Below, piece by piece: positions 9,330 to 61,842 of a stretch of 64,000 nt of DNA. Made by a program: the position numbers and the translations under genes. Location of the stretch: IMG/VR virus record IMGVR_UViG_3300005613_000001, positions 316,279-380,278 of that record; one strand, given 5' to 3'. Each line of letters starts with the position of its first letter. The stretch's first letter is position 1. The notes under the pieces were generated by a model. The model had not been told where the DNA came from. It did not search any database and saw only the letters and a program-made list of their open reading frames with translations. This stretch comes from a virus.

Positions 9330-9917
9330 TTAACCTGAAAAATACTTGCCTAATAAATCTTCAAATGGTCTCCCTCGCTTCTTTATTGTTGATCTCATAC
9401 TCTTAAACCTTTGAGAGAATCCATTTGTATCTAGTGATTCCCATTCTTTTATAGTTTTGAACACTCCTTCTGTTGCATATCTCAAAGGTCCATACCAAAA
9501 TTCTGTTGCCCAAAATGTTGAAATCAATTCGTCAAGAGTTGTATTTCTTGGATGTATTACGTGGCGTTTTGTATCTACACATACAATCATTCCTAAACTG
9601 TTTAGTGGAGATGGATAAACTATTGTTTGTTTTGTCACTGGGGAGACTAATGACATAGCATGAACAAGAACTTTGCCACCACTATATTTTTTACTTCCAA
9701 AAATAAGATAAGGTAAAGGAAGATTTACATAGTTTGATCCCTTTATCCTTAATCCCCTTTTGAGTCCTCGCACTTTAATTGTTCGCCTACAAGGGGGATA
9801 CAATCTAAACGTAGGAGCTATTTTTTCGTAATTAGGCTCTCCCCATTCAATGTTAATTCTACTTGCAAGAGGTTTTGTGTACCACATATCATCTCCGTAC
9901 AATTTTGTTTTGCGCAT
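9330..9917 (-). CDS. Paralog of the protein at 29585-30319
   Basis: About 195 residues; the start at 9917 or the ATG at 9887, which has a better GGAG site, are both possible. It shares with the protein at 29585-30319 the blocks YPPCRRTIKV / YPPVRRTINV, LPYLIFG / FPYMIFA, IVYPSPLN / IWYPPIPN and ISTFWATEFWYGP followed by KEWESLD. Two copies of the same unknown domain in one phage, each in an early leftward operon next to a putative nucleotide-handling protein. Fold not recognised. Confidence 0.7.
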   Translation of the reverse strand: MRKTKLYGDDMWYTKPLASRINIEWGEPNYEKIAPTFRLYPPCRRTIKVRGLKRGLRIKGSNYVNLPLPYLIFGSKKYSGGKVLVHAMSLVSPVTKQTIVYPSPLNSLGMIVCVDTKRHVIHPRNTTLDELISTFWATEFWYGPLRYATEGVFKTIKEWESLDTNGFSQRFKSMRSTIKKRGRPFEDLLGKYFSG

Positions 9918-9920
9918 AAA

Positions 9921-9957
9921 GCAAGCCCCACCATGCGGGGACAACGGTGAGGCTTGC
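9921..9957 (-). terminator. Hairpin after secreted-protein gene
   Basis: GCAAGCCTCACC / GGTGGGGCTTGC stem with 13-base loop, directly downstream of the gene ending at 9972, followed by only TTT. It may be a weak terminator or processing site; it also covers the start region of the next gene. Confidence 0.5.
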
Positions 9958-9971
9958 GGTCGCCGTTCAAG

Positions 9972-10298
9972 CTAATATGGGTAGACTGGGTATATCTCGC
10001 GGTGGTATGCGCACGGCGGCACAACGGGCACAACAGGTCGTGGCGGGCAAATGAATGCTCTGAGCCTGGGGCACCATACCCTTTCAAGCACTACTTTTGG
10101 AGTATAAACCGTTCTCGGCGTATACACCGTCCTCGTTTGTTGTTCCCACACAGTTCGGGGGACGTAGTAGGTCTGTTGTGCTGGTTCCCATACCGTTTGC
10201 GGTTGATAGATGGTTCTTTCCTGGTATACCGGAGGGCCAAATGCCATCGCGGAAGACGCAAGAACCATCACCAAAACACCGCACAGAATCCATCTCAT
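9972..10298 (-). CDS. Secreted Tyr/Pro/Thr/Val repeat protein
   Basis: 108 residues with a clear signal peptide (MRWILCGVLVMVLASSAMA, cut likely after AMA). The mature part is a run of degenerate Y-x-P-(R/Q)-T-V-(W/Y) repeats and ends in a Pro-rich tail with several Cys. This kind of repeat is familiar from planctomycete exported proteins, so a host origin is possible. Its own early-type promoter lies at 10338-10365. GC content appears higher than the phage average. Confidence 0.6.
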   Translation of the reverse strand: MRWILCGVLVMVLASSAMAFGPPVYQERTIYQPQTVWEPAQQTYYVPRTVWEQQTRTVYTPRTVYTPKVVLERVWCPRLRAFICPPRPVVPVVPPCAYHREIYPVYPY

Positions 10299-10337
10299 AT
10301 CGTTTCTCCTATTCTGGGTTACAACCCCTCTACTTCC

Positions 10338-10365
10338 AACATACCATGTTTATTGGGAATGTAAA
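10338..10365 (-). promoter_or_regulatory. Early-type promoter (TTTACA-N16-TATGTT)
   Basis: -35 TTTACA at 10360-10365, spacer TTCCCAATAAACATGG, -10 TATGTT at 10338-10343. Drives the secreted repeat protein gene with a roughly 30-base leader. Confidence 0.6.
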
Positions 10366-10547
10366 GCTTCCAATTTTCGGACTTTCTTTAGCAATCGTTG
10401 AATACGATATCCAGTCTCACCGCACATGACCACTTGAGAGTATAACTCAAGATACTCTTCATCGCTCAGATTCTTCACTTCGCCAAGCTTATCAGGATTT
10501 ATAAATTCTTGGAGTGTCAAGATTTTACAAATCCTATTACTTGGCAT
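10350..10547 (-). CDS. Hypothetical protein, 65 aa
   Basis: Helical small protein (TLQEFINPDKLGEVKNLSD, IQRLLKKVRKLEALH). The 5' end overlaps the upstream gene by about 30 bases, and the 3' end overlaps the promoter of the secreted-protein gene. Not recognised. Confidence 0.5.
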   Translation of the reverse strand: MPSNRICKILTLQEFINPDKLGEVKNLSDEEYLELYSQVVMCGETGYRIQRLLKKVRKLEALHSQ

Positions 10548-10702
10548 GTGACCGGCTCGCCTTCAAATTCATTGGGAATTTTGGAGGCTTGTTCGGCGGT
10601 TTCAACACGGGCCTGTAAACTACCATCTTTTCCAAACCCGACTGCTGCAAAATGATAGGCTTTGCTGAAACGTAGCTTTCTGGCTACATCGTCTGAAGTC
10701 AT
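10517..10702 (-). CDS. Hypothetical protein, 61 aa
   Basis: Compact alpha/beta-looking small protein (AVGFGKDGSLQARVETAEQA, PVTCQVIGFVKS). Directly follows the vWA gene by 4 bases, so it belongs to that operon. Not recognised. Confidence 0.55.
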   Translation of the reverse strand: MTSDDVARKLRFSKAYHFAAVGFGKDGSLQARVETAEQASKIPNEFEGEPVTCQVIGFVKS

Positions 10703-10706
10703 TTTA

Positions 10707-11522
10707 TTACCCCTTTAAATCTTTATCCGCCTGCTTTGCCTGGGCCTTAATTCTTTCAATAGAAGAAGGCGTAGCGCTTTGGGCACCTATATTGCCTGCT
10801 GTTTTGTCATCTTCCTCCGTCAAATTGGTGCAGTCCAACATTTCAGCGCTGTCAGAATAAAAATTAACCGCGCTGGGAACAACACCGGCTGAACGGGAAG
10901 TAAAATATTGCTTTTGCCGAGTCCTAGTGGCACGATACCCAGCACCCAAAGCGCTGGCGTTGGTATCTTTAAGCACCGCACAGTTGGCAACAGGAATTGA
11001 AAAGTTTTTAGCTGCCTTTTCAACTTCCCTCTTTGAAACGCCCATCCAAGAAACCGTCCATTGTTGCTTGCCTTCGGAGTTTTTCACTTCTTGGATAGAT
11101 TGAGACATTTCATTAACAATCGGATTCCCATTTACTCCTGGGTACTTTTGTGACGAATTTTCATCGCCATCTGTCATAATGACGATCATTCCGGCATCAT
11201 TTTCCCCAAGTTGAATGGTCTCTTTGGCTTTCGATAAAACGTAAGCCACAGCATCATTTAATGCTGTTCCACCCGTAGGCAGATAGGTTTGTTCTGTCAA
11301 CTCAACCAATTCATCTGCCGACTGACACCACAAATGTTCGTCTGCATGATGGTTAAATGTAACAAGACACACCAAAACTTCCTGCTCTCCCTCTTCATGT
11401 ACATCTTTGTACATTTGGACCTTTTCATTAAAATCTGAAATGGTCTTCATCTTCTTTTCTGGATACTGACCCATAGAGCCAGATTTGTCCAGAAGTAAAA
11501 TTACATAAGTCTTAGGTTTCAT
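10707..11522 (-). CDS. von Willebrand factor A domain protein
   Basis: 271 residues. Residues 5-190 form a vWA domain: the metal-binding MIDAS motif DKSGSMG near residue 12, the Thr of LPTGGTALNDAV near 80 and the Asp of VIMTDGDENSS near 115. The C-terminal 80 residues are low complexity with TNASALGAGYRAT and a Lys/Gln-rich tail. vWA domains are metal-dependent protein-binding modules, often paired with chaperone ATPases or surface complexes. Here it sits at the end of a four-gene cluster of unknown proteins. Confidence 0.8.
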   Translation of the reverse strand: MKPKTYVILLLDKSGSMGQYPEKKMKTISDFNEKVQMYKDVHEEGEQEVLVCLVTFNHHADEHLWCQSADELVELTEQTYLPTGGTALNDAVAYVLSKAKETIQLGENDAGMIVIMTDGDENSSQKYPGVNGNPIVNEMSQSIQEVKNSEGKQQWTVSWMGVSKREVEKAAKNFSIPVANCAVLKDTNASALGAGYRATRTRQKQYFTSRSAGVVPSAVNFYSDSAEMLDCTNLTEEDDKTAGNIGAQSATPSSIERIKAQAKQADKDLKG

Positions 11523-11532
11523 TCGAAACTCC

Positions 11533-11940
11533 TTAAATTAGCTTTCTAGCCTTTTGGCATGTTTCTTTTAAGTCTTTGACTCCCTTAAACGGAGTTTTAG
11601 GTTTGGCTTTGCACGTACCACACCTGGGTACGGGATTGCCGGGCAGAGCAACACCCTGAGGATTAGGCATTCCCTCTGGAACTTCGCCGTGAGTTAATCC
11701 CGCCTCAGTTTCATGACCTTCTGCTTTGTCCATTTTAAGTTCCTCAGTCAAAGGTTTAAATTTTCCACTCTTGACAAATCTTACTTCATACGGAAGCATT
11801 TCGTCAATATCTTTTTCTTCTTTAGCAGTAAGCCCACTGTGATAGACCACATGAATGCCATCGGCACCCACACCTATTCCTTCCACATTGGGAAAGGCTG
11901 TGATTACTGCTAATTCAAGTTTAATGTTAGGATCTAACAT
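11533..11940 (-). CDS. Hypothetical protein, 135 aa, in vWA cluster
   Basis: N-terminal alpha/beta part (AVITAFPNVEGIGVGADGI, VVYHSGLTAKEEKDI) resembles a small ferredoxin-like fold, followed by an acidic linker and a CGTC motif near residue 110. One base separates it from the upstream gene. Unknown role. Confidence 0.6.
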   Translation of the reverse strand: MLDPNIKLELAVITAFPNVEGIGVGADGIHVVYHSGLTAKEEKDIDEMLPYEVRFVKSGKFKPLTEELKMDKAEGHETEAGLTHGEVPEGMPNPQGVALPGNPVPRCGTCKAKPKTPFKGVKDLKETCQKARKLI

Positions 11941-11941
11941 T

Positions 11942-12925
11942 TCACTTATTACCTACCTTAACGCCATTCAAGAAACCTTCTTTAGTTTCTTCGCGTTTTC
12001 CACCTTCAAGGATTTGTTGGCAAAGTTCAGGGTTGATATAATTTACATAAATCATACCAGCCGGTTCTTCTTCCCAGAAATCAATATCCTTGGGATCAAC
12101 ACCGATTTCCTGATCGATCCTGGCACCAGCACCCACTTCTAATTTCTTGGTGGCTGCTCTTTTGGCACTAACACTTCTGGTAGCACCGCGCTCCTGCACA
12201 TCCATGCTTTCTAGTCCCAATTCATCGGCAGCATAACTAAGAGTGTCAGCATCACCATTAAACGAACAGCACTTAGCCATAGTGCCGCCGCCAGCGCCCA
12301 TGCTATACAGCCGTCTCTCACGATATACCGGCTTCGGCTTTGCTTCCTTACTTAAATAAAAGGCAAATCCAATTGCCCAAACTCGGTCTTCACCGATCAT
12401 TTGCTGTGCTACACCACGCTGCATTTCTTCTTCGGAGATAATGTACTGCCGCACTTCACCTTGTTCATTTCTGAACCCATCCAACCACAAGGTTTGACCC
12501 GTAGTGGTCGAAATATAGCTTTGCGCAGGCCATTTGTACTCACACTCTGGGCAAAAACGATCCTGCTGAAAATCAACATTATGAATTGGGCATTGCTTTT
12601 TGTACTGCTCCAAATTCAAAGCAGTCATTTTCTTACCAGTGAGCGGATTAATGCCCTGGACAGAAATAACGACTGCAACTTCATGGGCGTGCCCTTGATT
12701 CATCGTGAAATCAAACCACATTCCCTTTCCCGCTTCTACGGGAACAAAATAACTAGATGCTTTATCTGAGCCGTTCATCCAGTTTTCGGGGCACTTAGGG
12801 TATTCATCTACCACATGTGCCGGTCTTGGAGCGCCGGGTGGCAATGAATGAAGATCATCGCCTTCCAATGCCTGAGGAGTGTGAATTACTGCACTTAAAC
12901 CATTAACTGTCATTACATTATTCAT
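11942..12925 (-). CDS. Hypothetical Zn-ribbon-containing protein, vWA cluster
   Basis: 327 residues. A zinc ribbon is likely at CPIH...CPEC near residues 112-130. Other blocks are GMWFDFTMNQGHAHEVAVV, DRVWAIGFAFYLSKEAKP and a Gly-rich MGAGGGTM. No family recognised. It is bounded upstream by a strong terminator (12965-12996), but read-through from the promoters near 14100-14217 would still include it. Confidence 0.65.
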   Translation of the reverse strand: MNNVMTVNGLSAVIHTPQALEGDDLHSLPPGAPRPAHVVDEYPKCPENWMNGSDKASSYFVPVEAGKGMWFDFTMNQGHAHEVAVVISVQGINPLTGKKMTALNLEQYKKQCPIHNVDFQQDRFCPECEYKWPAQSYISTTTGQTLWLDGFRNEQGEVRQYIISEEEMQRGVAQQMIGEDRVWAIGFAFYLSKEAKPKPVYRERRLYSMGAGGGTMAKCCSFNGDADTLSYAADELGLESMDVQERGATRSVSAKRAATKKLEVGAGARIDQEIGVDPKDIDFWEEEPAGMIYVNYINPELCQQILEGGKREETKEGFLNGVKVGNK

Positions 12926-12964
12926 TTTATTTTCCTCTTTCTTGAAATTGCTTTAGAAAAGAAA

Positions 12965-12996
12965 CCCAAACCCCCGGCTTATGCCGGGGGTTTGGG
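12965..12996. terminator. Strong GC-rich hairpin terminator
   Basis: CCCAAACCCCCGGC-TTAT-GCCGGGGGTTTGGG, a 14-bp perfect stem between the genes at 13006 and 11942. No long T run on the minus strand, so it may attenuate rather than stop transcription. Confidence 0.75.
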
Positions 12997-13005
12997 AATT
13001 CTCAT

Positions 13006-13881
13006 TTACCAAACTCTGTGACCCGTTTTGAAGGGATCATTCGTACCGCCACCCATCTTTTTGCCTCCAAGTCGGATTTTAAGCTGAGGCAGAGTGCCCA
13101 AGCTATCCTGTTCTTGGAATTTGACGGAGGCTTTCGGGTAGCGTTTTGCTACCTGGGCGAAATCTTTACCTTGAACTCGGTCAAAGATATCGATTTCTTT
13201 ATCGTCTTCCTCTCCCGTTCGCACAGCAAGATAAACAAGCTGTTGAACATTCAAAGGAAGACTCGCCCAATTGCAACCGGCGTCAGAGACACCATCGGGG
13301 CGAAGCGGCGTACCCGGTTCGGCAGGGTTCTCGCTGGCAAATCGGTCGGGACGTTCGCCCACACGATAAACCTGCGACGGAACACCATCAACTGTTACAG
13401 TATCTCTTTCGGGATACTCCAAGTTGACGATTTCATCCACCAACTGCTTGGAAAGTTCCGGGTTAAGAGAACCGTCCTTGTTATAAACAAGGCAACGACG
13501 ATCATTGGTAGCCTCTTTCAGCTTTAAGCCGTAGGGGCTGATATGATTGTCGGGGTCAAAATGATCCACAAGCTGAACAGCGGTCAAAGTGGCCGCATGC
13601 TTTTCGGGATCATTAGAGATATCGATCTTTATCGGCGTGGGAGCCGCCTTAGAATCGTCTTCACCCCGGAAGATACGAGCAATTCTACGGGCTCGGATTA
13701 ACGGCACACCACACTTTTCGATATCTTCGAATCGGGCGGCGCACAGATCGTCGTCGCAAATTGCCTCGGGGTGGTTCTCTACGCCACAGAGTTTGGCGAA
13801 CTTTTTCAAGAACTCATCAACATTGACACTGGTGCCTTCTAGAGCTTGGCGCGCAGCATCCAACTTTTCGGTAGCATTCAT
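13006..13881 (-). CDS. Hypothetical protein, 291 aa, first of vWA cluster
   Basis: Acidic soluble protein. Blocks visible are a helical N-terminus with CGVENHPEAICDDDLC (possible metal site), TAVQLVDHFDPDNHISPYG, LVDEIVNLEYPERDTV and a C-terminal FDRVQGKDFAQVAKRYPKAS. Function not recognised. Gene is visibly more GC-rich than the rearrangement of AT-rich genes around it, suggesting recent acquisition. Two early-type promoters precede it. Confidence 0.7.
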   Translation of the reverse strand: MNATEKLDAARQALEGTSVNVDEFLKKFAKLCGVENHPEAICDDDLCAARFEDIEKCGVPLIRARRIARIFRGEDDSKAAPTPIKIDISNDPEKHAATLTAVQLVDHFDPDNHISPYGLKLKEATNDRRCLVYNKDGSLNPELSKQLVDEIVNLEYPERDTVTVDGVPSQVYRVGERPDRFASENPAEPGTPLRPDGVSDAGCNWASLPLNVQQLVYLAVRTGEEDDKEIDIFDRVQGKDFAQVAKRYPKASVKFQEQDSLGTLPQLKIRLGGKKMGGGTNDPFKTGHRVW

Positions 13882-56733: not shown

Positions 56734-57483
56734 ATGAACATAATTGTCAATACAATATGCTGGAATGAAGAGAAGATGTTACCTTTCTTTTTGAAGTATT
56801 ATGAGCAATTCGCCTCTGAAATCATAGTACATGACAATTATTCAACTGATGAATCGCCTCAGATTATTAAAAAGCACCCTAAAGCTAAGCTAAAGCATTT
56901 TTTCACAGGTGATAAATCTAGAGAGGATGTAGAGATTAAGGTAAAGGGACATGCTTGGAAGAAGTACCGAAGGGCTGATTGGGTTATAAATGTGGATATT
57001 GATGAGTACCTTTATCACCCTGATCTTCTGGGGTTTTTAGATAAGTGCAAAAAGAAAGGCATTACAGCCCCCACCCCAAAGGGCTATGAAATGATAAGTG
57101 ATAGGTTCCCCAATTACGGCAGTCATATTTTTGAGCAAGTTCAGTGGGGAATGAGAAAGCACAAGATGGATAAGATGGCTATATTTGATCCCAGAGAAAT
57201 TCAAGAAGTGAATTATGGCCCTGGATGCCACCCCCCTAGAGGCCCACAGGCGCATATGTTTCAACCCAAAGGAAACATTGTGAGTCGTCGGAACCCTGAT
57301 TTTAAATTACTTCACTTCAAATTCCTCGGATTTGAATACGTTCGCCAAAGATATGAGGTATTGGGGGCTAGAAAAAGCCAAGAAGATATTGCATGTACTT
57401 ACGGAATGTGTTATTTTGATAGCGCCAGGAAGCTTATGAAGCGATTTAACAAAATAAAAGCTAATTCCGTAAAGGTGGTATAG
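56734..57483 (+). CDS. Glycosyltransferase family 2/92-like
   Basis: 249 residues. NTICWNEEKMLPFFLKYYEQ at the start, DADYIDE-like ADWVINVDIDEYLYHP near 80 (DxD), and FKLLHFKFLGFEYV near 185. Transfers sugar from a nucleotide donor; acceptor unknown. Ends 2 bases before the convergent methyltransferase. Confidence 0.75.
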   Translation: MNIIVNTICWNEEKMLPFFLKYYEQFASEIIVHDNYSTDESPQIIKKHPKAKLKHFFTGDKSREDVEIKVKGHAWKKYRRADWVINVDIDEYLYHPDLLGFLDKCKKKGITAPTPKGYEMISDRFPNYGSHIFEQVQWGMRKHKMDKMAIFDPREIQEVNYGPGCHPPRGPQAHMFQPKGNIVSRRNPDFKLLHFKFLGFEYVRQRYEVLGARKSQEDIACTYGMCYFDSARKLMKRFNKIKANSVKVV

Positions 57484-57484
57484 A

Positions 57485-58159
57485 TTAACGCTGAGCAGTT
57501 AGAGTAATTCGCAATCCTTCTTCGTATGCCTCCAATTGCTTCCCTCTTGCTTTCCCCCAATCAAAGTAATTTATTTTTTCAAAGCTAAAACTGTGCAACA
57601 TCATCTCAATAGCTTTGATTGAAGGGATGCCAACAAGGGCCATTCCATGTTGTGTGTTAGGCTTTAATATGCCATTTTGAGCAGCGGTGCCTTTTTCTGT
57701 TTTTAATCCAATGGATGGCTGATCGTCTCCATTTACTTGGCTGTCAATAATTATATGTTTGACTCCCGTTTTAACTATTTTTTCAAGAATGGCGTATTGA
57801 CTTAATGTGTGATAAAAAACACCCAAGATAAAAGCTACATCGTATTTCCCCTCGATGGCCTCTACATCTATATTTGCTTGTTTAAATTGATATTTATTTT
57901 TGTCTATCCCGTATTGTAAGAAATTAGATTCAGCAATTTTGAGTGATGATTCTCTTGCCTCATATCCTGTTATTGATTTCGCTCCATTTTTGAGAGCGGC
58001 AAAAGACCATCGACCATCGCAAGAGCCCAAATCAATTATGCGAGCCCCTTTGATAATTTCGAGATTATTTTGAATAATTGCTTTATATCGCCATTTAAGT
58101 CTATCAGGGTGATTGGCGACCGGGCCTTTTAAAAATACAGGGTATTTATTAAAAAACAT
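57485..58159 (-). CDS. SAM-dependent methyltransferase
   Basis: 224 residues. ARIIDLGSCDGRWSFAALKNG (about 38-58) is motif I of the Rossmann SAM fold, ITGYEARESS motif II, DVAFILGVFYHTLSQY motif IV region. Substrate unknown; placed beside sugar-nucleotide genes, so possibly a sugar or small-molecule methylase. Confidence 0.8.
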   Translation of the reverse strand: MFFNKYPVFLKGPVANHPDRLKWRYKAIIQNNLEIIKGARIIDLGSCDGRWSFAALKNGAKSITGYEARESSLKIAESNFLQYGIDKNKYQFKQANIDVEAIEGKYDVAFILGVFYHTLSQYAILEKIVKTGVKHIIIDSQVNGDDQPSIGLKTEKGTAAQNGILKPNTQHGMALVGIPSIKAIEMMLHSFSFEKINYFDWGKARGKQLEAYEEGLRITLTAQR

Positions 58160-58224
58160 ATCTTCCCTTTGTTTTCATATTATGTTATAGTATGTGTTAT
58201 ACTTCCGATAATTAGGAGTTAAAA

Positions 58225-58962
58225 ATGCGAGGCGTAATATTAGCAGGCGGAAAAGGGACGCGAATGTGCCCTTCTACCAAAGTAACAAATAAACACCTTC
58301 TGCCCGTTTATTCTGAGAAGGGTGCTGTACCAATGATTTTCTATCCTATCAGAACATTGGTGCAAAGCGGTATTACTGACATCCTCATCATCTCATCAAG
58401 AGAGCATTGTGGGCATATCATCCAAAATCTAGGAGATGGATATGATTTTGGGGCAAACTTCTCCTACAAGATTCAAGATCACCAACGAGTCCAATTAGGA
58501 ATTGCCAGTGCATTAAAATTAGCTGAAAATTTCGTTAATGGAGAAAACTTTTCTGTTATATTAGGTGATAATTTCTTTGAAGACACCTTTGTAGATCAAG
58601 TAGAAGAATGGAACATGGGTGGTTGTTTGCCTCCCGCCGCCGTCTTCTTAAAAGAAACAACTGAAATTGAACGATTCGGTTGTGCAACTTTAAGTGAAGA
58701 TCGTGTTACTAAAATTGTAGAGAAGCCCAAAGTTCCTGAAAGCAATTGGGCCGTCACGGGACTCTATTTCTACACGCCTCAAGTATTTGAAGTGGCTGAA
58801 ACTTTAAAGCCGAGTCATCGTGGAGAATTAGAAATCACAGATATTAACAATCATTATTGTCCCGATTTACTTGGTGTGAAATTAAAGGGGTTCTGGAGCG
58901 ATATGGGAACCCCTAATAGCATGGCGAACACTCAAGAATTTATGCAACATCATAATTTTTGA
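58225..58962 (+). CDS. rfbA: Glucose-1-phosphate thymidylyltransferase (RmlA-like)
   Basis: 245 residues. LAGGKGTRMCPSTKVTNKHLLPV near 6-28 is the nucleotide-binding signature, VILGDNFF near 110 binds Mg, and VEKPKVPESNWAVTGLYFY near 165 completes the site. Makes dTDP-sugar donors that the phage's glycosyltransferases could use. Longer C-terminal helices of host RmlA are missing. Confidence 0.85.
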   Translation: MRGVILAGGKGTRMCPSTKVTNKHLLPVYSEKGAVPMIFYPIRTLVQSGITDILIISSREHCGHIIQNLGDGYDFGANFSYKIQDHQRVQLGIASALKLAENFVNGENFSVILGDNFFEDTFVDQVEEWNMGGCLPPAAVFLKETTEIERFGCATLSEDRVTKIVEKPKVPESNWAVTGLYFYTPQVFEVAETLKPSHRGELEITDINNHYCPDLLGVKLKGFWSDMGTPNSMANTQEFMQHHNF

Positions 58963-59821
58963 GGCGAGCTTGTATAGACTTGTGAATTTTCTTTAATGCT
59001 TGAGTTTCTGTTTCTCTATATCTCTCAACCTCTAATACCAATTTCTTCTTTTCGGTAATATCAATTACTGCACCTTCTACGCATCTGAAGCCGGGACAAT
59101 TTGGAAGACATTTACCTTGGCGTTGACATAAGCCCTTACATATTTTCCCTGTAATTAAAACCCATTTTTCTTCTTTGGTTAAGGGCAGTTCAATATGAAC
59201 TTCAAAATCTGTAACTTCCCCATGTTTTTCTACAAGGTGGATGAACTGCCTTCTCTTCAAGGGGTCAAGATAAAGTTCAGTTGATTTAATGTTTTTTAGA
59301 TCGCTGAATTCTACCCCAAGCAACCTAACCATAGCAGGATTCGCTTTAATAAAAGTGCCATCTTCAAGTGTGGTGGTATAGAATCCAATAGGGGCGTTGT
59401 TATAGAAGTTCTGGTAATATTCTCGTTCATTCTCTGTGTTTTTAACTTTGATTGCATTCACAACAGAGTGGCATAACAAACCAGGCTCCGCCTCTATTTT
59501 ACCTTTGGGTATATAATCTTGAGCCCCGGCTTTGAGCATCTCAACAGTAAGGGTTTCATCTCCATAACCAGTTATGACTATAATGGGGGTAAGAATTTGT
59601 CTGGATCGAATATCTTTAATTAATTCTAATCCAGTGTAATCTGTCATCATATAGTCTATGATGATACAGTCGAAACTGCGTTTTCTTATCCAGTTTAGAG
59701 CTTCTTTGCCTGTTGAGGCTTTTTTCAATTCAGGACGCAGGCCCTTTAGCGCCTTTGAAAGCATCATTAGGTCAGCATCATCATCATCTGCCAAAAGCAG
59801 AACATATTTTTTCTTTGCCAT
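58940..59821 (-). CDS. Response regulator with PAS domain
   Basis: 293 residues. Receiver domain 1-125: acidic pocket ADDDDAD near 10, phospho-acceptor Asp in CIIIDYMMTDYTG near 54, IPKGK Lys near 105. PAS-like domain 140-255 with a Cys cluster (CKGLCQRQGKCLPNC), then a helical end. No output DNA-binding or kinase domain. Partner of the histidine kinase it follows by 23 bases. Confidence 0.85.
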   Translation of the reverse strand: MAKKKYVLLLADDDDADLMMLSKALKGLRPELKKASTGKEALNWIRKRSFDCIIIDYMMTDYTGLELIKDIRSRQILTPIIVITGYGDETLTVEMLKAGAQDYIPKGKIEAEPGLLCHSVVNAIKVKNTENEREYYQNFYNNAPIGFYTTTLEDGTFIKANPAMVRLLGVEFSDLKNIKSTELYLDPLKRRQFIHLVEKHGEVTDFEVHIELPLTKEEKWVLITGKICKGLCQRQGKCLPNCPGFRCVEGAVIDITEKKKLVLEVERYRETETQALKKIHKSIQARLKNYDVA

Positions 59822-59844
59822 TTTCCCTTACTTTCCTTGTATGT

Positions 59845-61374
59845 CTATTTATGAAGTGTGAAGTAAAATTTCGCACCTTCTCCCTCTTTTGAAATAACCC
59901 AAATTTTGCCTTTATATTCTTCTACTATCTTTTTTACTAATGATAAACCTATTCCCGTACTTTCTGTAGAATCTTTAGGTTCTAGAGTCTGGAATATCTG
60001 AAATATCTTATCATGATACTTAGATTCTATCCCAGGACCATTATCCGAAACACAAAATTCAACACAATCCCCGACATCTCTATTAGATATTTCAATTTTA
60101 ATATTATCGGGATCATTATGATGTTTTACAGCATTATTTATTAAATTAGAAAAAAGCTGTATCATCCTAGTGGGATTAGCCTCAATAAACTTCACTTCGA
60201 AACTTTTTTCTGTAACTGTTTCTAATGAGACTTCTACTTCCTTTATTACTCTCTGGATGTTTAATTTCTCTTTATTTACTTCCATACGGCCAATGCGAGA
60301 GAATTCAAGCAAGCCATTAATTAGAGATTCCATTCTTTTCACTCTTTGTTGTAAAAGCTCAACATGATCTGTAACATCTAGATTTTCTTTTAAGTCCTCC
60401 GCAATCCAAGATGATAAATTAAACACTGCCCTCAAAGGAGCTTTCAAATCGTGAGATGCCACATAAGCGAATTGACTAAGTTCGGCATTAGAAGCAAGCA
60501 ATTCATCTGTCCGCTGCGCAACGCGAATTTCTAGAGAATCATTTGCCTCTTTCAATTGTTCATTTTGAATATAAATTTGATCTTTATTCTCTTTCAGGGA
60601 ATGCATCATTTGCACCACGGAATGAAATATGCCGGTAGTTTCTTTTTCTACTGCAACATTCAAATCGCCTGTTGCAATTCTTTCTGTTAATGATGCAATT
60701 TCTGAAGGTTCGCCACCTACCTGTGTTAAAACATTGCGAGTAATAAAGATAGTCAAAACTATCCCTGCCAAACAAGCAATGACGGTACTCACAATTAAAA
60801 AAATAACAGCATGTCTTGCTGTTGTTGTCGCTTCTTGCTGACGGGTTTCCAACAACCCCTTTTCCACATTGATAAATTCTTGTATGTGAAGTCGTATGTT
60901 GCCCATCTTGCCTTTGCCAATAGGAAGCATTGCAATGATTTCAGGATGTATTGGGCCTTCAAGATCTGTTATGCGAAGTTTAATTTCTTCTTTAGCTACG
61001 GAGTCCAGCCAATCCTGAACTAATTTATCAATTTCTCTCACCTTTTCAATTTGAGATGGATTATCTGAAACGTGGTTATTCAAATGGGTTTGCATTTCCG
61101 CATATTCTTTTTGCCCACGCTCATAGGGCTCTAGAAATTCCCGTGTGCCCGTAATAATGAAACCCCGCAATCCTGTTTCCATGTCAATAATTGATCCTTC
61201 AATAGCATGTGCATCGCCTATCACTTCATTTGTGTGAATTACCCATTCTTCCGTTTCAATAATTGATGAAATGCTAAAGTGGCTCACAAGCGAAGTGGCA
61301 ACCATAATCGCTAAAATAACAGCATAACCAAAAATTAATTTGGTGCGTAATGGGGCATCATTTTTCCAGTTCAC
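59845..61374 (-). CDS. Sensor histidine kinase with CHASE3 and HAMP
   Basis: 509 residues. Membrane segments at about 12-34 and 188-211 flank a CHASE3-type sensor (ETGLRGFIITGTREFLEPYERG). HAMP follows, then a coiled segment, the phospho-His in FAYVASHDLKAPLRAV near 310, and an intact ATPase (N box LINNAVKHHND, G1 SDNGPGIES, G2 STGIGLSLVKK). All catalytic motifs are present, so it should be active in the host membrane. Confidence 0.9.
   Translation of the reverse strand: MNWKNDAPLRTKLIFGYAVILAIMVATSLVSHFSISSIIETEEWVIHTNEVIGDAHAIEGSIIDMETGLRGFIITGTREFLEPYERGQKEYAEMQTHLNNHVSDNPSQIEKVREIDKLVQDWLDSVAKEEIKLRITDLEGPIHPEIIAMLPIGKGKMGNIRLHIQEFINVEKGLLETRQQEATTTARHAVIFLIVSTVIACLAGIVLTIFITRNVLTQVGGEPSEIASLTERIATGDLNVAVEKETTGIFHSVVQMMHSLKENKDQIYIQNEQLKEANDSLEIRVAQRTDELLASNAELSQFAYVASHDLKAPLRAVFNLSSWIAEDLKENLDVTDHVELLQQRVKRMESLINGLLEFSRIGRMEVNKEKLNIQRVIKEVEVSLETVTEKSFEVKFIEANPTRMIQLFSNLINNAVKHHNDPDNIKIEISNRDVGDCVEFCVSDNGPGIESKYHDKIFQIFQTLEPKDSTESTGIGLSLVKKIVEEYKGKIWVISKEGEGAKFYFTLHK
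59846..59853 (-). promoter_or_regulatory. Late-promoter-like CATAAATA
   Basis: Minus-strand CATAAATA at the 3' end of the kinase gene, 25 bases ahead of the PAS-response regulator, with AAGGAAAG ribosome sites between. Confidence 0.5.
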
Positions 61375-61777
61375 AAAGGCTCCAATATTTTCCTAAAATA
61401 GCCATTTTTTCAACAAATTGTTCCATCCCTACCGGCTTTAACAAATAGCCAGCAACATTGTTCCCATATGCTTTAACAATATCTTCATCATTGGCAGAAG
61501 AAGTAAGTATAACTACAGGAAGTGATTTCAACTCATCGTCTTTCCTGATTTCTGTTAGGAATTCAAGACCATTCATTTTCGGCATATTTAAATCTAAAAG
61601 AACAATAAGAGGTTGTTTGAGCTTCTTTTGCCCATTCTCTCCTCTCAATAAATCTAATGCTTCCAATCCATTTCCTGCCACATGAAGACTGTTAATAATA
61701 TTGGCCTTTTTAAAGGCTCTTTTAATGGTTATAACATCTACTTCATCATCTTCTACCAAAAGAAAGCTGTACATCAT
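61358..61777 (-). CDS. Single-domain response regulator (CheY/Rcp1-like)
   Basis: 139 residues. VEDDEVD near 8, phospho-acceptor in LLDLNMPKMNG near 63, Thr/Ser in LTSSA near 92 and Lys in LLKPV near 112. The SLL-x-EDD start and long alpha4 loop are as in Rcp1-type regulators that partner soluble or membrane kinases. Overlaps the kinase gene by 17 bases. Confidence 0.9.
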   Translation of the reverse strand: MMYSFLLVEDDEVDVITIKRAFKKANIINSLHVAGNGLEALDLLRGENGQKKLKQPLIVLLDLNMPKMNGLEFLTEIRKDDELKSLPVVILTSSANDEDIVKAYGNNVAGYLLKPVGMEQFVEKMAILGKYWSLCELEK

Positions 61778-61795
61778 AATTAATTTCCTCCATAC

Positions 61796-61803
61796 TATTT
61801 ATG
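61796..61803 (-). promoter_or_regulatory. Late-promoter-like CATAAATA
   Basis: CATAAATA then GTATGGAGGAAATT and the ATG at 61777: well-formed late promoter plus ribosome site for the two-component operon. Confidence 0.65.
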
Positions 61804-61812
61804 CGCATAAAA

Positions 61813-61842
61813 AAAACCCTCGCCAAATGGCGAGGGTTTTTT
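61813..61842 (-). terminator. Terminator after Hsp20 gene
   Basis: AAAACCCTCGCC-ATTT-GGCGAGGGTTTT followed by more T on the minus strand; separates early Hsp20 operon from the late two-component operon. Confidence 0.9.

Follow-up and report, generated by a model that had tools for sequence, protein, structure and literature searches.

Does a large phage carry a two-component system of its own and, if so, through what would such a system act? The question is raised by a locus in the IMG/VR virus record IMGVR_UViG_3300005613_000001 (527,112 bases), from which we analysed a window of 64,000 nt (positions 316279-380278 of the record). Three intact open reading frames (ORFs) lie there on the minus strand in the order RR1, kinase and Rec-PAS, encoding a single-domain response regulator, a membrane sensor histidine kinase and a receiver-PAS protein, respectively (Table 1). 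This module belongs to a T4-like phage, as T4-type capsid, terminase and tail genes are present in the same record. We think it fairly probable that the module is a self-contained, branched two-component system of the phage, the output of which would be exerted through contacts with host signalling proteins.

A kinase and two response regulators in a T4-like phage

A first-pass annotation of the window had described an intact membrane kinase with a CHASE3 sensor, phospho-His and ATPase motifs, and our profile searches agree. Pfam matches above the curated cut-offs cover CHASE3 (8e-34, residues 42-181), HisKA (3e-10) and HATPase_c (2e-27), and CHASE3 is located between two transmembrane (TM) helices, read as hydrophobic stretches at about 13-35 and 188-212. 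The motifs FAYVASHDLKAPLR (phospho-His, residue 308), NLINNAVKH, DNGPGI and STGIGL are intact; the DHp phospho-acceptor His and the HATPase_c N, G1 and G2 boxes of a two-component kinase are thereby all present. The predicted structural model consists of an all-helical N-terminal bundle and a kinase fold, and the nearest relatives of the kinase core in the PDB are the histidine kinase 8f71 and bacteriophytochromes. The HAMP domain also ascribed to this protein was not supported by the profile search, which gave a sub-threshold HAMP_2 match in the linker (E 0.13). The CHASE3 part is most similar to those of Cytophagales kinases (L058, L047), a likeness that does not establish the host. In HisKA kinases with strong phosphatase activity, the H-box is marked by E/DxxT/N. 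The H-box of the phage kinase reads HDLKAP instead, which is a lead on phosphatase activity, not a test of it.

The two regulators likewise turned out as annotated. RR1 is of the Rcp1 type, being a single receiver with an Rcp1-like C-terminal extension, and its best solved relatives are 5te9, 5ic5, RcpB, RcpA and Rcp1 (1i3c, 1jlk, 1k66 and 1k68 among the matches). The third protein combines a receiver with a PAS domain. Both receivers have the acidic pair, the phospho-acceptor Asp, the Thr/Ser and the Lys in place (D10/D11, D62, T92 and K114 in RR1; D12/D13, D56, T84 and K106 in Rec-PAS), and the active sites of all three proteins are complete. The AlphaFold2 model of Rec-PAS (mean predicted local distance difference test score, pLDDT, 81) shows a receiver, a helix, the PAS domain and a C-terminal coiled-coil helix (residues 256-292). 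A five-cysteine loop inside the PAS domain (residues 214-244, pLDDT below 50) is a candidate metal- or Fe-S-binding site; the loop was absent from every other protein fetched for comparison. In agreement with the earlier statement, neither regulator has a DNA-binding domain, and Rec-PAS has no catalytic output domain.

The set had also been called a full phosphorelay. We do not retain this term, because no HPt domain and no receiver fused to the kinase occur among the three proteins; one kinase with two receivers forms a branched system rather than a His-Asp-His-Asp relay.

The kinase gene begins 17 nt inside RR1, and 23 nt lie between the kinase and Rec-PAS, the end of which overlaps a convergent downstream nucleotidyltransferase gene by 23 nt. 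A strong terminator hairpin followed by a T-run (fold -22.8 kcal/mol, z -7.5) closes the transcript of the upstream Hsp20 gene, so that transcription of the module begins separately.

Table 1. Features of the module and related loci. Positions are those of the window unless another record or locus is named.
Feature	Position	Strand	Remarks
RR1, Rcp1-family single-domain receiver, 139 aa	61358..61777	(-)	Pfam Response_reg 3e-21
Sensor histidine kinase, 509 aa, GTG start	59845..61374	(-)	TM-CHASE3-TM-linker-HisKA-HATPase_c
Rec-PAS protein, 293 aa	58940..59821	(-)	Pfam Response_reg 2e-22, PAS_8 1e-5
Five-cysteine loop inside PAS domain of Rec-PAS	59100-59170		CKGLCQRQGKCLPNCPGFRC
T4-late-like box before RR1	61795..61803	(-)	CATAAATAG; begins 26 nt before RR1
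T4-late-like box before Rec-PAS	59845..59853	(-)	CATAAATAG; begins 32 nt before Rec-PAS; overlaps kinase stop codon
Intrinsic terminator, Hsp20 gene/module boundary	61809..61836	(-)	CCCTCGCC-ATTT-GGCGAGGG then T8
gp23 capsid gene	423769-424998 of record		45 kb from module
Large terminase (TerL)	437184-438656 of record		60 kb from module
Receiver + coiled coil + C-terminal membrane helix	L025:6706-7611		
Receiver + coiled coil + C-terminal membrane helix	L026:6675-7586		

Phage setting and late-like boxes

The window contains genes for a tail sheath (19 kb from the module), tail tube, baseplate hub, sheath stabiliser, head-tail adaptor, SbcC-like nuclease and ribonucleotide reductase, and gp23 and TerL follow further along the record. 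A search with the Portal_T4 profile matched nowhere and was hence uninformative. A bacterial chromosome or a prophage border at this place had been named beforehand as the finding that would speak against a phage module, and we therefore tested for it. Phage-type genes flank the module on both sides, structural genes lie on the same contig, and the G+C content stays at 0.37-0.42 across the module without a break. The bacterial type of the gene content could be explained if bacterial genes had been joined to a phage contig by misassembly or at a prophage border, yet the flanking genes, the even G+C content, the phage-type boxes inside the module, the presence of gp23 and TerL and the recurrence of the module in other phage contigs make this explanation very improbable.

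PF00072, the canonical receiver family, matches the 527-kb record at exactly two places, both in the module. The record contains two HATPase_c kinases, the module kinase and an orphan. The orphan, a histidine kinase of 352 aa with PAS_3, HisKA_3 and HATPase_c (G000:C1:17639-18697; locus L127:139-1197), is followed by a NUDIX gene, and no partner regulator for it was found anywhere in the 527-kb record.

Late promoter boxes had been reported before both regulators, and this observation holds for boxes of a late-like type. A late-like box precedes RR1 and Rec-PAS, and the pattern [CT]ATAAATAG is positionally enriched: it occurs 11 times in 204 kb of the record, with 6/11 copies lying 9-50 nt ahead of an ORF start (0.29 expected), two of which are those before RR1 and Rec-PAS. 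The strict T4 late box TATAAATA, which the boxes resemble, shows no enrichment in the window (3 copies against 5.2 expected). Since late-like boxes precede RR1 and Rec-PAS, they argue that the genes of the module are wired into phage expression.

The same cassette in other large virus contigs

Relatives were found by motif-pattern and alignment searches of IMG/VR followed by a neighbourhood scan; scans of IMG/VR with the kinase sequence alone had yielded no relative. A search for homologues in other phages, which the first-pass annotation had advised, thus identified nine other large contigs (133-548 kb) that carry one such kinase together with an Rcp1-like regulator and another receiver protein, with the active-site residues kept: L018 (219 kb), L019 (133 kb), L020 (153 kb), L021 (548 kb), L022 (298 kb), L024 (169 kb), L025 (142 kb), L026 (182 kb) and L028 (351 kb). 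The presumed rarity of such genes in phages is borne out by INPHARED, where no record covers 80% of the kinase. Its kinase matches were left out, as they were partial, under 35% identical and in many cases located in records resembling bacterial contigs filed as phages.

The records of L025 and L026 contain TerL. The 219-, 298- and 351-kb contigs yielded no TerL, and their phage status rests on a gene order common with the TerL-bearing 548-kb contig and on the IMG/VR classification. L024 is the least certain member, its terminase match being weak and containing stops. Two shorter contigs carry parts of the set. In L015 (28.7 kb, with a gp23 fragment), which is cut by the contig end, RR1 and the kinase are 65% and 54% identical to those of the window and all catalytic residues are present; L016 (48 kb, with gp23) contains a kinase. 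Two candidates that look like the host flank of a prophage were not counted, namely L017 (L125:10619-13296; a bacteriophytochrome, an Rcp1-type regulator and a terminase in 16 kb of GC-rich DNA) and L023 (a Mu-like prophage with flanking kinases). L027, L029, L032, L034 and L036 are also excluded from the phage set.

Two parts of the cassette vary. The sensor part of the kinase is CHASE3, GAF, PAS, Cache-PAS or none, and the third protein has PAS in the window, GGDEF in two contigs, a coiled coil with a membrane anchor in two and a bare receiver in four, with one unclassified. In most cassette-bearing records, the two receivers of the module are the only canonical ones. Four huge records have one extra weak receiver match below the cut-off, and the one that was scanned, L129 of G008, proved to be a cREC domain; G012 has one receiver beyond the two of the module.

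In L019 and L020, the GGDEF motif of the third protein is intact and the module adjoins a phage DNA polymerase. The kinase, Rcp1-type regulator and Rec-GGDEF of these contigs (L019:7950-9952, L020:7944-10013) may form a phage diguanylate cyclase system. The GGDEF domain points to cyclic di-GMP (c-di-GMP) as the messenger of those phages, and the version found in the two predicts phage-driven synthesis of c-di-GMP.

The bare receiver of L018, L021, L022 and L028 is encoded on the opposite strand, beyond a few conserved genes. The kinase and a divergent pair of regulators surround conserved genes in these contigs, three in number, which comprise two unknown families and, in two cases, a VWA protein. 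The window seems to contain homologues of these neighbours at 10707-13881, 47 kb from the module.

The membrane-anchored receivers of L025 and L026 bear on the idea of a lysis or superinfection timer, in which changes in the envelope, or the adsorption of a second phage, would be sensed by the kinase and lysis would be adjusted by the regulators. The late-like boxes, the location of CHASE3 outside the inner membrane and a gene with weak XhlA/holin likeness (E 0.009, 0.05) after the second receiver protein of L024 would fit such a timer. However, the holin-like matches are near chance and nothing similar adjoins the module in the window, and we regard this idea as quite improbable.

Origin and co-inheritance of the kinase and RR1

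A maximum-likelihood tree built on the kinase cores joins the window kinase with that of L015 (100/88) and places the phage kinases at scattered positions among those of bacteria. Constraining twelve phage kinases to one group was rejected by the approximately unbiased (AU) test (p-AU 9e-10), while a clade of the window, L015 and L016 kinases was compatible with the data (p 0.53). The RR1 tree recovers the same phage groups as the kinase tree. Furthermore, the kinase and RR1 distances are correlated (Mantel r 0.73 for 66 loci and 0.84 for 11 phage loci, with 0/2000 permutations as high), as would be expected for cognate partners. The AU rejection, the RR1 tree and the distance correlation together indicate that the cassette was taken up repeatedly, with the kinase and the regulator travelling together. 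The independent capture of the set by several large phages suggests that phages may run their own signal sensing in infection.

The three-gene set is common in bacteria and thus of a known kind; what is new is that huge phages carry it. A kinase ORF was recognised at 71 bacterial or archaeal loci; 46 of these also have an Rcp1-type regulator, and in 27 both regulators are on the same strand within 2.5 kb. The second receiver protein of such loci has a variable output (histidine kinase, GGDEF, PP2C, HTH). Three-gene loci are found, for example, in cyanobacteria (L049 Hassallia), Nitrospirota (L052), Shewanella (L055) and Lokiarchaeota (L092). In the Lokiarchaeota loci (L092:4-2183 and L098), the kinase and the Rcp1-type regulator are followed in the same order by a receiver protein, the C-terminal half of which resembles an AsnC/Lrp-type DNA-binding protein.

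This bacterial background raises the question of neutral cargo, that is, of a host operon recently picked up and of no function for the phage. Huge phages accumulate host genes, and the operon type is a common one. On the other hand, late-like boxes stand at both regulators, L015 at its level of identity has kept the catalytic residues and so shares a long history with the window module, the captures were repeated and independent, and in four huge-phage contigs the kinase and the pair of regulators are retained around shared neighbours. We consider neutral cargo unlikely.

Proposed mode of action

We propose the following scheme for the phage-owned, branched system. Late in infection, as the boxes would imply, the phage makes the membrane kinase, the CHASE3 domain of which may sense a signal from the envelope or outside, beyond the inner membrane. 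The kinase would autophosphorylate at His308 and pass phosphate on to RR1 (at Asp62) and Rec-PAS (at Asp56). The phosphorylated regulators would then contact other proteins, most likely host kinases, diguanylate cyclases or stress regulators. We infer protein contacts, with host signalling as the likeliest target, since canonical receiver proteins are lacking elsewhere in the phage and the module has no DNA-binding domain. In the sister phages L019 and L020, the output would be built in as the GGDEF domain.

Some points weigh against this scheme. The third protein of the window phage has no enzymatic output, and the second-messenger rewiring suggested in the first-pass annotation would apply to it by analogy only. 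In addition, the late-like box rests on few copies (6/11), and no close relative of the PAS part of Rec-PAS was present among the fetched proteins.

The same proteins might instead serve as a decoy or sink that drains phosphate from host two-component proteins, or dimerises with them, and so silences a host response without sensing a signal. Stand-alone receivers often serve as a phosphate sink, and RR1 is such a receiver; the orphan PAS-HisKA_3 kinase, if active, must act on a host regulator. However, a CHASE3 sensor, a membrane anchor and an intact ATPase would be superfluous in a pure decoy, and the kinase and regulators evolve together. A decoy therefore appears improbable to us, and we prefer a signalling module that passes phosphate to its own regulators.

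We tentatively extend this proposal to the other large phages, as an idea that we hold with a little less than even confidence. Such phages may have repeatedly and independently captured the cassette as a modular sensing device, in which the kinase and the Rcp1-type regulator are kept and the sensor and the output of the third protein are exchanged; the device would sense the condition of the infected cell and control its second messenger or the time course of late infection. Phages sense peptides (arbitrium) and quorum signals via intracellular receptors. If functional, the module would allow a lytic-type huge phage to monitor the cell exterior in real time and to intervene in host signalling. 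The recurrence of one constant and two variable parts in unrelated phage groups makes the proposal testable by comparison.

Comparison with known systems

The bacterial three-gene operon has the same three parts, in the order kinase, Rcp1-type regulator and second receiver with a variable output. In contrast, the window module is phage-borne, is preceded by late-like boxes and has the order RR1, kinase and Rec-PAS, and its third protein has a Cys-rich PAS loop and no output enzyme. RR1 also belongs to the same Rcp1 family as the regulators of the Cph1-Rcp1 and BphP-RR phytochrome pairs, and the kinase core is near bacteriophytochromes; however, the window kinase has a CHASE3 membrane sensor in place of PAS-GAF-PHY and no chromophore domain.

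Among phages, the closest case is agrDBC of phiCDHM1 (Hargreaves 2014, PMC3901668), in which the phage-borne kinase has no receptor domain that could be identified and a response regulator is missing, whereas the window module has a sensor and both regulators and belongs to a 527-kb T4-like phage. A survey of 224 jumbo phages (PMC7824862) described cREC domains and stated that they were never linked to histidine kinases. The receiver fold is common to both, but the window receivers match PF00072 and have the phospho-acceptor Asp. Hot-spring phages with a hybrid kinase gene have been mentioned (PMC6302217), and the main text of "Clades of huge phages" (PMC7162821) makes no mention of kinases or two-component systems. 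Our literature search, which covered histidine kinases, two-component systems, phytochromes and diguanylate cyclases of phages but did not reach subscription papers, found no description of a complete phage two-component system and nothing closer than phiCDHM1; priority for such a system is not proven.

Neighbouring genes

The region beside the module (56734-58962) contains glycosyltransferase-like, methyltransferase and glucose-1-phosphate nucleotidyltransferase-like genes, and several further glycosyltransferases occur in the window, indicating surface sugar genes in the phage. An ORF at G000:C1:24154-25566 reads like a nicotinamide phosphoribosyltransferase, and a possible ADP-ribosylglycohydrolase lies near it at 9653-10627; both would be NAD-related genes of the phage.

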